Source of the DNA: Planctomycetota bacterium
GTDB taxonomy: Bacteria; Planctomycetota; Phycisphaerae; Phycisphaerales; UBA1924
Assembly: GCA_039819165.1 (NCBI GenBank)
Contig: JBCBSM010000001.1
Coordinates: 2,232,001 to 2,296,000, forward strand
Reading direction: 5' to 3'
DNA length: 64,000 nucleotides
In this document: positions 25,034 to 27,905 of the stretch, one piece after another
Layout: each line of letters starts with the position of its first letter
Numbering within the stretch: position 1 is the stretch's first letter
The notes under the pieces: generated by a model
What the model saw: only the letters and a program-made list of their open reading frames with translations
What the model was told of the DNA's origin: nothing
The model's database searches: none
Position numbers and translations under genes: made by a program

Positions 25034-25720
25034 CTAGGCCCAGCCGAGCCAGCGGGCGGTCGCGATCATGGGTCCGATTACCGGCTCGTGGTCCAGGAAC
25101 GCGGGCAGGTCGGCGATGGGGATCCACCGCGCCTCGTCGTACTCCCACGCGTGCTCGCGCGGTGGGCGGAGCGGCGGCGGGTCGCCCTCGAGGCGCGCAC
25201 GAACGAGGACATCGACGCTGCGCGCACCCGGATCGGGCACGATGCCTACGACGCGAGCGTCACGCAGCGGATGCGCGATGCCCACCTCCTCGTGCAGCTC
25301 GCGGCGGAGCGTGCGGAGGAGGTCCGGCTGGCCGAGCACGCGGGCGTCGTCGGCCGCTTCCAGCCCGCCGGAGGGTCCGAACTCCCACATGCCCGGATAG
25401 CTGCGGGTCGAGCGCCCGCGGCGGCCGGCGAGCACAACGGGCCGCCGGCCCGCCTGCGCCTCGATGATGCCGGTGATGCTGAGGATCGACACGGGCACCA
25501 CCGCCGCCCGCGGGCACACGAGGTGCGCGAAGCGGTCGAGCCGCGCGTGCAGCGTGGCGGACGCCGCGTCGATTGCGGTGATCGCGAGGATGGGACCGTC
25601 GAACAGCCGCGGGTTGGCCTCGGTCGCCGCCCGCCACCGCTCGGCGATGCCGGGATCGCGGGCCGGCCGCGGGCCGGCGACGACCACCGTGGGCGGGCGC
25701 CGCAGCGGCAGGATCTTCAC
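25034..25720 (-). CDS. NUDIX hydrolase
   Basis: 228 residues. The NUDIX box is partly canonical: the core RRELHEEVGI gives the REXXEEXG metal site, preceded at unusual distance by GPSGGLEAADDARVLG; the insert before the helix is longer than the standard GX5E spacing. The N-terminal 110 residues carry ILAITAIDAASATLHARLD and VVPVSILSITGIIEAQAGR. The substrate cannot be predicted. Its start overlaps the ybaB stop by four bases (ATGA), so it is the last gene of the dnaX cluster. Confidence 0.82.
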   Translation of the reverse strand: MKILPLRRPPTVVVAGPRPARDPGIAERWRAATEANPRLFDGPILAITAIDAASATLHARLDRFAHLVCPRAAVVPVSILSITGIIEAQAGRRPVVLAGRRGRSTRSYPGMWEFGPSGGLEAADDARVLGQPDLLRTLRRELHEEVGIAHPLRDARVVGIVPDPGARSVDVLVRARLEGDPPPLRPPREHAWEYDEARWIPIADLPAFLDHEPVIGPMIATARWLGWA

Positions 25721-26094
25721 AGGCCCATCGCGGCGCCGAACTGGCCGGCGATGTCCTCGGGCAGGCCCAGCTCCTGCGCTTCGTCGGCCACCGTGCGGCG
25801 GGCGATGGCCTGGGCGGCGGTGAGCGCCTCGTTGGTAGCCTCGGCGATCAGGCCCTCGGCCAGGGCGCGGGACTCGTCGCCCGACCCAAGCCCCGCGAGC
25901 ATCGCCGGTTCGAGGCGGACTTCGACGATCCGCAGTGCGCCCGATGCGGTCACGCGGACGGCCCCGCCGCCCGCCGAGCCCTCGGCGCGGGCGCCGTCGA
26001 GCGTGCGGCGGACGCGCTCGGCGGCCTCCGCGAGCTTCTGCTTATCGCGGAGCAGCCCGGCGAGGGCGCCCACGGCGCGCATGCTATCGAACAC
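25717..26094 (-). CDS. YbaB/EbfC nucleoid-associated protein
   Basis: 125 residues with the family layout: N-terminal helix (MRAVGALAGLLRDKQKLAEAAERVRRTL), a beta segment GGGAVRVTASGALRIVEVRLEP and a C-terminal helix LAEGLIAEATNEALTAAQAIA. EbfC-type proteins are dimeric DNA binders. The position downstream of dnaX is the classic dnaX-ybaB arrangement, here with one small gene between and no recR after it. Confidence 0.9.
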   Translation of the reverse strand: MFDSMRAVGALAGLLRDKQKLAEAAERVRRTLDGARAEGSAGGGAVRVTASGALRIVEVRLEPAMLAGLGSGDESRALAEGLIAEATNEALTAAQAIARRTVADEAQELGLPEDIAGQFGAAMGL

Positions 26095-26127: not shown

Positions 26128-26472
26128 CTACGCGCCGGGGCCGGGCGTGATGATCGTCTTGGACACGACGCGTCCGCCGCGGACGGCGACCTCGAAGACC
26201 ATCGGGTTGGCCGAGTCGACCTGGCTCATGGTGAAGCGATAGCGGCCCTCGCCGACGTCCTCGGCGTTGTCGTTGCCGACGCGCTGCTTGAGCTCGTCGA
26301 GCGTGAGCTGCTCGTCGATCATCTCGGTCTCGACCCAGGCGTGCATGTCGTTGCGGCTCACGGTGCCGTTGCCGCCCTGCATCATCGTGAAGTAGTACAC
26401 GCCGCCCGCGCAGGCCGCGATGACGAGCAGCAGGACGATGGTCTTGGCGGGGTTGGATCCCTTCTTGGACAT
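26128..26472 (-). CDS. Small single-pass membrane protein, unknown function
   Basis: 114 residues. The N-terminus is basic (MSKKGSNPAK), then one membrane helix (TIVLLLVIAACAGGVYYF) and a polar C-terminal domain of about 80 residues (TEMIDEQLTLDELKQRVGND, RYRFTMSQVDSANPMVFEV). Topology suggests the C-terminal part is outside. No family is recognised. Its place between dnaX and ybaB is unusual, because those two are normally neighbours. Confidence 0.75.
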   Translation of the reverse strand: MSKKGSNPAKTIVLLLVIAACAGGVYYFTMMQGGNGTVSRNDMHAWVETEMIDEQLTLDELKQRVGNDNAEDVGEGRYRFTMSQVDSANPMVFEVAVRGGRVVSKTIITPGPGA

Positions 26473-26532: not shown

Positions 26533-26781
26533 TTAGCCCCCGGAGCCCGATTCCGGGGCGAACAGCTCCCGCGCCCGCTGCACCAGGGGATGCTCGTCGA
26601 GGGACTGGCGCCCCTCGTCCGCCGGGTCCCGGGCGTGGTCCTCGGCCGGAACGGGTGCAGGCCCGGCGTCGCCGGACGGCGCCGACGCACGCACCGGTGG
26701 GGGCGCGGGCTCGGCACCGGGCGTTGGTGCGGGTCGTGCTGGCGGCGGCGCCGGCGCGTCGGTGCGCGCCGGCTTCAGGCT
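26533..26781 (-). CDS. DnaX C-terminal tail reached by -1 frameshift (tau-like product)
   Basis: From the slippery site the -1 frame stays open for 82 residues and reads SLKPARTDAPAPPPARP, a Pro/Ala-rich linker, then EHPLVQRARELFAPESGSGG. The last part resembles the HPLV..A.ELF tails seen at the end of many full-length DnaX proteins. Composition and ending look like real protein, unlike the shadow frames. The full frameshifted protein would be 457 residues. It overlaps no other gene and stops 60 bases before the next start. Confidence 0.65.
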   Translation of the reverse strand, partial: SLKPARTDAPAPPPARPAPTPGAEPAPPPVRASAPSGDAGPAPVPAEDHARDPADEGRQSLDEHPLVQRARELFAPESGSGG

Positions 26782-26787
26782 TTTCCC
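26751..26787 (-). promoter_or_regulatory. Programmed -1 ribosomal frameshift signal in dnaX
   Basis: On the minus strand the zero frame reads GCG GGA AAA GCC TGA. G GGA AAA (26787-26781) is a canonical X XXY YYZ heptamer. After an 8-base spacer (GCCTGAAG) comes a perfect hairpin CCGGCGCG-CACCGA-CGCGCCGG with eight GC-only pairs (26772-26751). Spacer length and stem stability are what known -1 sites need. No internal Shine-Dalgarno stimulator is obvious upstream. Confidence 0.7.
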
Positions 26788-27905
26788 GCCGGCGCCTCCG
26801 CGTGGGTCGGGGCGGATCGGGCGAGCGCCCCGAGGTCGGCGAAGCGTTCGGCCGACGCCAGGCGGACCAGGGCCGCGTCGAACATCGCCCGCGGCGCCGG
26901 GCTGTCGCGGCAGATCCGTCGGGCGGCCTCGCACACGGCGATCAGGTGCGATAGCGCGGGCGCATCGAATCGGGCCGCACGGTCGATCTCCGCTCGGCGG
27001 GCGGCATCGGACAGCTCGACCAGATCGGTCTCCGGCCCGCACGCGGCGAGCACCATGAGGTCGCGCAAACGCGCGGCGATGGTCTCGAGCGCCAGCTCGG
27101 TGCCGATGCCCAGCGCGAGCAGTGCATCGCCGGCGTCGAGCGCAGCCCGCGCCTCGCCCTGCGCGAAGGCGTCGATGAGCGCGCCCACGAGCTCGCGATC
27201 GGGTAGGCCCAGCAGTTCCTCGAGCAGCGCGAGCGTGAGGTGCGTCTCGCCGGCGGCCATGAGGCGATCGAGCAGGCTGAGCGCATCCCGCATCGACCCA
27301 GCTCCCAGGCGCGCGACGGCCGCCAGCAGGTCGTCGTCGGCTTGCACCCCCTCCTGCTCGCACACGTCCTTGAGGTGTTCGGCGATGCGGGCCGCGGGGA
27401 TCATCCGGAAGTCGAAGCGCTGGCAGCGGCTCTGGATCGTCGCTGGCACCTTGTTGGCCTCGGTGGTGCACAGGATGAACCGCACGTGTGCGGGCGGCTC
27501 CTCCATCGTCTTGAGGAGGGTGTTGAACGCCTCCTTGGTGAGCATGTGCACCTCGTCGACGATGTAGACCTTGTCGCCGCCGCGCATGGGCAGGTAGCCC
27601 GCGTTGGCGATCAGCTCGCGGGCGTTGTCGACGCCGCGGTTGCTGGCGGCGTCGATCTCGATGACGTCGCTGTCCTGGCCGGCCATGATGGCCGCGTTGA
27701 CCTCGTCGCTGCCGCCGGCGAGCGCCTTGGCGAAGATGCGGGCCATGCTGGTCTTGCCCACGCCCCGGGTGCCGCAGAAGAGGTACGCGTGCGCGACGCG
27801 GCCCTGCTCGATGGCCCGCGCGAGCGTGCGGGCGATGGCCTCCTGGCCGACGACGGCCTCGAAGTCCTGGCTGCGATAGCGGCGGGCGAGGGCGGTGTAG
27901 GGCAT
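26775..27905 (-). CDS. dnaX: DNA polymerase III subunit gamma/tau, zero-frame (short) product
   Basis: 376 residues starting MPYTALARRYRSQDF, the standard DnaX N-terminus. AAA+ motifs: Walker A GTRGVGKT (45-52), Walker B VYIVDEVHML (113-122) and the sensor-I region with IQSRCQRFDF. The zinc-binding Cys cluster that normally sits between Walker A and DAASNRGVD is absent; the stretch reads ALAGGSDEVNAAIMAGQDSD instead. Domain III follows, ending about residue 360. The zero frame stops two codons after a GGGAAAA slippery site, so this form lacks any C-terminal tail. It loads the beta clamp as part of the clamp loader. Confidence 0.92.
   Translation of the reverse strand: MPYTALARRYRSQDFEAVVGQEAIARTLARAIEQGRVAHAYLFCGTRGVGKTSMARIFAKALAGGSDEVNAAIMAGQDSDVIEIDAASNRGVDNARELIANAGYLPMRGGDKVYIVDEVHMLTKEAFNTLLKTMEEPPAHVRFILCTTEANKVPATIQSRCQRFDFRMIPAARIAEHLKDVCEQEGVQADDDLLAAVARLGAGSMRDALSLLDRLMAAGETHLTLALLEELLGLPDRELVGALIDAFAQGEARAALDAGDALLALGIGTELALETIAARLRDLMVLAACGPETDLVELSDAARRAEIDRAARFDAPALSHLIAVCEAARRICRDSPAPRAMFDAALVRLASAERFADLGALARSAPTHAEAPAGKA

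Follow-up and report, generated by a model that had tools for sequence, protein, structure and literature searches.

A probable programmed -1 ribosomal frameshift cassette of reversed polarity in the dnaX gene of a planctomycete and its family

Introduction

Can a bacterium depend on a slipping ribosome for its full-length clamp-loader protein? The question is raised by the dnaX gene on the minus strand of a 64,000-nucleotide stretch of a Planctomycetota genome (the window), where the zero frame ends just behind a slippery heptamer and the -1 frame runs on. An initial annotation of the locus described a frameshift cassette of reversed product logic, the zero frame giving the short form and the slip the long one. 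The short form itself is disputed: passages of PMC3290774 doubt that most bacteria make gamma, and in passages of PMC5009743 gamma is the subject of considerable controversy.

Results

The dnaX cassette in the window. With the start ATG at 27905, picked by alignment with relatives, the zero-frame product scored 355.8 bits against NCBIfam TIGR02397 (cut-off, 250); by its sequence it is gamma-like, with the ATPase domains and domain III. The zero frame at the junction reads GCG GGA AAA GCC TGA on the minus strand, so the slippery G GGA AAA just before the TGA was correctly read in the initial annotation, as was a -1 frame open for 82 residues (Table 1). The annotation had counted 8 bases of spacer and 8 bp of hairpin; the sequence gives 7 nt and 9 perfect G-C pairs, with a 6-nt loop (26759-26764). 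The GGAGG upstream element was absent from that account and is added here. Fused to K375, the tail would give a 457-aa tau-like product.

Table 1. Features of the dnaX cassette (positions in the window)
Feature	Position	Strand	Basis
dnaX zero-frame product, 376 aa, ending ...APAGKA-stop	26778..27905	-	Pfam PF13177, PF22608, PF12169; NCBIfam TIGR02397
Shine-Dalgarno (SD)-like GGAGG, 7 nt 5' of heptamer	26795..26799	-	sequence; SD-like 4-mers enriched here in short-site dnaX genes
Putative slippery heptamer G_GGA_AAA	26781..26787	-	sequence; identical in 7/7 genus members
Zero-frame stop TGA, one codon past heptamer	26775..26777	-	sequence
7-nt spacer, heptamer to stem	26774..26780	-	sequence
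Stem 5' arm, GCCGGCGCG, 9 bp	26765..26773	-	sequence and folding
Stem 3' arm, CGCGCCGGC, 9 bp	26750..26758	-	sequence and folding
-1 frame tail, 82 codons: Pro-rich linker and conserved C-terminal motif EHPLVQRARELF	26536..26781	-	sequence, selection analysis
Stop of -1 frame tail	26533..26535	-	sequence

The locus thus has an in-frame X_XXY_YYZ heptamer, an upstream SD-like element, judged on the presence and conservation of GGAGG in the sequence, and a 3' stem-loop (9 bp at 7 nt). The GGAGG could pair with the 16S 3' end, because GGATCACCTCCTTT, the usual 16S 3' end with the anti-SD, was found in two copies in the window's genome. The same genome encodes tRNA-Lys UUU and CUU and tRNA-Gly UCC, and since the UUU tRNA is present, the AAA codon of the heptamer fits slippage by it. 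An AAG of the E. coli type would be expected to slip less with the CUU tRNA present; yet, according to a passage of PMC4066793, 46 of 83 species with such a CUU tRNA have insertion sequence (IS) elements that use AAG motifs.

By itself, the hairpin of the window is unexceptional for such GC-rich DNA (z, -0.92, with 41 of 200 shuffles folding as well; second estimate, z of -0.98), and the case therefore rests on conservation. The sequence GGGAAAAGCCTGA occurred once in the 3.14-Mb window genome and at the same place in all seven genomes of the window's genus. Between the folds of two members of this genus (G000 and G003), the stem was, in our reading, kept via two-sided changes at pairs 6, 8, and 9. 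An Rfam search of the site returned three matches, all below gathering scores and none a frameshift element.

Two further open reading frames lie downstream of dnaX on the minus strand (25717-26094 and 26128-26472). The first after dnaX encodes 114 aa, by eye a small membrane protein, with look-alikes after dnaX in genus members and no Pfam family above cut-off; it is followed by a YbaB/EbfC gene (PF02575, 3.1e-12). dnaX and ybaB are a common gene pair.

Occurrence in relatives. The census comprised the window's genome and 100 relatives (101 genomes), in which 97 dnaX loci were read and 96 classified. Left out were three family genomes with no dnaX among the matches listed (G011, G045, and G051), one genome outside the family without dnaX (G093), and a family locus at a contig end (G014). 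Two tails ended at contig ends: one gene (G024) was called reversed from the site alone, with only 12 tail codons, and the other (G031) from a 127-aa open stretch. Two loci of unclassified polarity (G075 and G100) were kept in the site statistics. The window's family contributed 61 genomes, and 53 of the 57 classified were reversed, which supports the reversed product logic of the initial annotation. The four exceptions (G044, G046, G047, and G048) carried tau in frame and kept an A7 or A9 tract where the heptamer stands in the others. Of the 40 genomes from the rest of the order, 39 were classified: 13 genes were reversed, 24 were in frame, and 2 were unclear; runs of A9 to A12 occurred in 31 of these 39 genes. 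The tail in the zero frame without a slippery site, named in the initial annotation as evidence against programming, was not found in the order: all 28 in-frame relatives (4 in the family and 24 outside) had an A7 to A10 run at the homologous position.

The 53 reversed family genes carried the heptamers A_AAA_AAA (40 genes), G_GGA_AAA (12 genes), and C_CCA_AAA (1 gene), so that 13 sites were of the non-homopolymer X3A4 form and kept the X_XXY_YYZ re-pairing rule. The zero-frame stop lay exactly 3 nt past the heptamer in 44 genes and directly after it in 7; in the remaining two the distance was 18 and 21 nt. Upstream of the site, the 19,777 dnaX codons of these genomes contained no zero-frame AAAAAAA, GGGAAAA, CCCAAAA, or TTTAAAA and one each of AAAAAAG and CCCAAAG. 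The lysine codon of the heptamer was AAA in all 53 genes, compared with 590 AAG versus 83 AAA upstream. Heptamer, spacer, and hairpin recur in relatives, the first of the checks that the initial annotation had proposed.

The tail as protein. The second check was selection on the tail, and here too the outcome agreed: codon substitutions in the genus show purifying selection on the tail when it is read in the -1 frame. Over all aligned columns its pN/pS was 0.58, compared with 1.01 and 1.57 for the same alignment in the other two frames. The Jukes-Cantor (JC) dN/dS was lowest in the shared core (0.13). Within the tail it was 0.18 in the C-terminal motif and 0.48 in the linker, and 0.34 over the ungapped columns; these ratios are rough since the synonymous sites are far diverged (pS about 0.6 to 0.7).

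Tails measured 69 to 82 aa in the window's genus and 100 to 249 aa in most other family members, with tails below 100 aa elsewhere in the family in G034, G043, G049, and G057. The genus tail consists of linker and terminal motif only, and only the terminal motif is shared with the longer tails. The 82-aa tail of the window had no globular domain, and no Pfam family scored; PF12362 appeared with the longer family tails, only below cut-off. By sequence comparison, these longer tails are homologous to tau C-termini: NCBIfam gamma/tau models matched one of them (G008) over their C-terminal parts (best E, 4.4e-6), and hhalign aligned a profile of six tails of the family's clade with one of nine in-frame tau tails of other Planctomycetota at 98.1% (E, 7.1e-14). 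A different family, f5, has short in-frame tails that end in a similar terminal motif. For a longer tail of a relative (L109), AlphaFold predicted a small alpha-beta domain, with a C-terminal helix where the conserved motif lies (pLDDT, 80.7). The top fold match of this model was 4tps (SirA; Z, 9.6); E. coli tau domain V (5fku_E, Z of 6.5 over 71 aa at 2.7 A; 2aya, Z of 6.0 over 72 aa at 2.8 A) was among the matches, level with unrelated chains.

Tract length and stimulators. The 96 classified sites were split into short (A7 or X3A4; n = 62) and long (A9 to A12; n = 34) tracts. An SD-like 4-mer at positions -17 to -8 was present at 53 of the 62 short sites (7 in a control stretch) and missing from the other 9, compared with 6 of the 34 long sites (control, 7). 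Folding of the 3' 50 nt gave a median z of -1.6 for short sites (n = 61) versus 0.0 for long ones (n = 34), and a control stretch 100 nt further on gave 0.2 and 0.1, respectively. With the named loci added, SD-like elements accompanied 68 of 81 short versus 10 of 76 long sites, and stems of at least 8 bp were found at 69 of 81 short sites (shuffles, 22%) versus 14 of 76 long ones (shuffles, 19%). As both elements are common at short tracts and mostly missing at long ones, stimulators that act on the ribosome go with short tracts. In phylogenetically independent pairs, the association with short sites had the right direction and was not significant, both for the SD-like element (4.0 of 9 for, 0.3 against, median p of 0.125) and for the hairpin (2.9 for, 0.1 against, median p of 0.25). 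At the long tracts, mostly without stimulators, RNA polymerase slippage is the expected mechanism.

Polarity changes in the gene tree. A quick tree of this one gene was built from 161 DnaX rows, 96 from the census and 65 from named loci; of 80 named loci, 8 from outside the planctomycetes and 7 with a reading frame running off the contig had been left out, and at least five named rows duplicate a census genome. The rows comprised 73 reversed/short, 61 in-frame/long, 12 reversed/long, and 8 in-frame/short genes, 4 without a site, and 3 unclear. On this tree, where branch support is uneven (55 of 154 inner branches starred, 46 open), parsimony required at least 16 changes of polarity and at least 11 of tract class. 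An XXXAAAN heptamer near the gamma/tau junction was found in 157 of the 161 rows, although for L155 and L174, at least, the match may be fortuitous. That the heptamer is kept in so many rows while polarity changes so often argues that both DnaX products are wanted, whichever frame is the default. In the other four rows (L123, L124, L133, and L161, all Planctomycetota), no XXXAAAN heptamer was found near the junction, and these loci are candidates for gamma loss.

Outside the window's family, the prevailing arrangement is an in-frame A9 or A10 run with a -1 stop close by, as in Gemmata sp. and in metagenome-assembled genomes labelled Schlesneria. Reversed genes with A10 also occurred, eight of them in family f6 (L069, L071, L073, L076, L077, L087, L089, and L098) and four more at L120, L132, L147, and L148. 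Because long sites as a class have no excess of SD-like or stem sequence, these are probably reversed genes that work by transcriptional slippage. The simplest story for the whole tree would be an ancestral frame-indifferent A-run with drifting polarity, which in the window's family underwent one major conversion into a short ribosomal cassette, with smaller conversions elsewhere.

Myxobacterial dnaX. A separate set of 38 myxobacterial loci was made up of 8 named loci and the best 30 loci of 60 genomes, with one gene counted twice (L165 and L229). By homology, the tau tail lay in the +1 frame in 21 loci, in the -1 frame in 2, and in frame in 8; 7 gave no tail match. In the +1 loci (L165, L170, L175, L178, L229, L231-L233, L235-L242, L244-L247, and L258), the zero frame stops at about 396 to 408 aa and the tail is DnaX_C-like; the +1 stretch of L170 matched PF20964 at 8.5e-5, under cut-off. 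Most of them share a strikingly conserved block before the stop, in which GGAGG lies in the loop of an inverted repeat (GGAGCG/CGCTCC) and CTTTCGC follows; the same block occurs in L173, L234, and L243, with no tail match. From its sequence, the arrangement resembles reversed dnaX in a +1 version, with a shift from TTT to TTC. L248 and L250 are the loci with the tail in the -1 frame by homology, L251 and L252 have an open -1 frame and no homology match, and L250 to L252 carry CCCTTTT just before the stop. The direction of the shift in this gene seems to have changed within one order. No myxobacterial dnaX frameshift was found in open-access PMC text, judged by listing.

Discussion

With high probability, the dnaX gene of the window carries a cassette for programmed -1 ribosomal frameshifting that is built like the one of E. 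coli and has reversed polarity. Ribosomes that stay in frame would stop one codon past the heptamer and release the 376-aa gamma-like clamp-loader ATPase. Those that slip from G_GGA_AAA to GGG_AAA would read 82 further codons and make the 457-aa tau-like protein; from what E. coli tau does, its C-terminus is expected to tether the polymerase. Apparently, full-length clamp-loader protein is made only by a -1 slip in this organism and in nearly all of its family. The ratio of tau to gamma would then be set by frameshift efficiency from the opposite side, as had been suggested in the initial annotation. The cassette, its conservation, the selection on the tail, and the homology of the longer family tails to tau C-termini are read from the sequences; the slippage, its ribosomal nature, its efficiency, and the roles of both proteins are our inference. 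Earlier work cited in a passage of PMC4066793 called G_GGA_AAA inefficient in E. coli, which weighs against this reading, although the same paper also counts V_VV.A_AA.R among the efficient motifs. Other points on that side are the unexceptional hairpin of the window, the independent pairs that fell short of significance, the four family genomes with tau in frame, the 9 short sites that lack an SD-like 4-mer, the window's tail with neither globular domain nor Pfam family, and the Rfam search that matched no frameshift element.

The same two products could be made by transcriptional slippage of the Thermus type, in which RNA polymerase lengthens the G3A4 or A7 tract by one base and the extended mRNA, translated normally, yields tau. 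This mechanism was preferred in the paper that first collected reversed dnaX genes (PMC3711429), passages of which add that two shorter homopolymers combined can also slip; an A7 tract is compatible with it, and it is the expected mechanism for the A9 to A12 runs of 31 of the 39 genes classified outside the family. However, the window's genus has at most four As in a row, short of the homopolymer of about 8 to 9 or more that goes with Thermus-type slippage, and the 13 X3A4 sites among the 53 reversed family genes obey the tRNA re-pairing rule X_XXY_YYZ all the same. Since, in addition, the SD-like element and the stem accompany short sites and mostly not those of A9 or more, we regard transcriptional slippage in the window's gene as unlikely. 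Termination and reinitiation, with the tail as a separate peptide started at an NTG that overlaps the zero-frame TGA, is more doubtful still. Such a codon always arises where the stop is TGA, and it was ATG in 4, GTG in 3, and TTG in 1 of the 53 genes, but it was CTG in 36, and in 9 genes the stop is TAG or TAA and no NTG overlaps it. The GGAGG of the window ends 16 nt before the NTG, which is far for a start site; moreover, reinitiation leaves the heptamer and the stem unexplained, and a detached tail could hold no partner at the clamp loader.

It is also very improbable that only the short form matters and that the tail is a decaying remnant. The genus tails have no globular domain, are short beside the 100 to 249 aa usual elsewhere in the family, and contain a loosely constrained linker (JC dN/dS, 0.48), all of which would suit decay; yet the C-terminal motif (0.18) and the cassette were kept in 7 of 7 genus members, and family f5 also has short in-frame tails with a similar terminal motif. 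A genuine frameshift mutation or a sequencing error in the G/A run, the alternative raised in the initial annotation, has nothing in its favour beyond the layout of the window and is hardly credible against 53 of 57 classified family genomes that look alike and purifying selection on the genus tail.

Beyond the window, we tentatively propose, at somewhat below even odds, a wider account of the programmed cassette. Planctomycetota cells would be selected for both DnaX forms, with the default frame near-neutral; an ancestral long A-run, read through RNA polymerase slippage, would have let polarity drift, and the shorter tract, SD-like element, and hairpin of the family would have turned it into a strictly ribosomal switch, making every tau, and every polymerase tethered by tau, dependent on a -1 shift. 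If this is true, gamma is a selected product across the phylum, and the supply of tau is open to regulation by translation conditions. The group offers natural contrasts for studying both mechanism and need (reversed versus in-frame genes, A7 versus A9 or A10, and G_GGA_AAA versus A_AAA_AAA). We expect that standard gene callers annotate the DnaX of these genomes as truncated.

The reversed layout as a kind is already in print. Antonov et al. (2013; PMC3711429) list, in the passages concerned, 17 such fs-genes in 12 genera, from a genome set that included two planctomycetes; poly-A occurred in 12 of the 17 (nine with 10 As and one each with 9, 8, and 7), and transcriptional slippage was proposed. 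Atkins et al. (2016; PMC5009743) restate the case in a passage noting that one nucleotide can swap the roles. They mark as unpublished a candidate with potential E. coli-like stimulators in Chlorobium phaeobacteroides, whose dnaX has seven As (PMC3711429). Fixation in a lineage, the G_GGA_AAA version, and the series of flips were not found in print in open-access PMC text, nor was dnaX or ribosomal frameshifting in Phycisphaera. What is new here, and well supported by the genomes compared, is the fixation in a family, the repeated change of polarity, and the presence of non-homopolymer heptamers in a complete cassette resembling that of E. coli.

As in the Antonov set, the zero frame of the window's gene ends right after the slip site to give gamma, and tau would need a -1 shift. 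Unlike in that set, the arrangement is fixed in a family; poly-A of 7 to 10, which is typical of the set and not defining, is missing from the window's genus (GGGAAAA in 7 of 7 members) and present as A7 in 40 of the 53 reversed family genes; and the window combines G_GGA_AAA with an SD-like element and a stem. Bacterial IS elements with G_GG.A_AA.A, in the part of PMC4066793 that treats them, share the heptamer and a -1 shift that gives the long product, but they are mobile, whereas dnaX is a cellular replisome gene. Thermus thermophilus dnaX, as its A9 transcriptional slippage is described in the passages available, serves the same two products, and most of the Planctomycetota dnaX genes seen outside the family resemble it with an A9 or A10 run, which is usually in frame and has a -1 stop close by; the site of the window, in contrast, has no long homopolymer and has ribosomal stimulators. 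The E. coli gene, as summarized in such passages, has the three elements of the window's cassette in identical order at its gamma/tau junction and likewise a stop one codon after the site. In E. coli, frameshifting at A_AAA_AAG, at about 50%, gives the short gamma, whereas slipping at G_GGA_AAA in the window would give the long tau. Thus, to judge by its sequence, the dnaX of the window works like the E. coli cassette, and it is not filed in the E. coli layout because its -1 frame is open for 82 codons and the shift would not give the shorter product.
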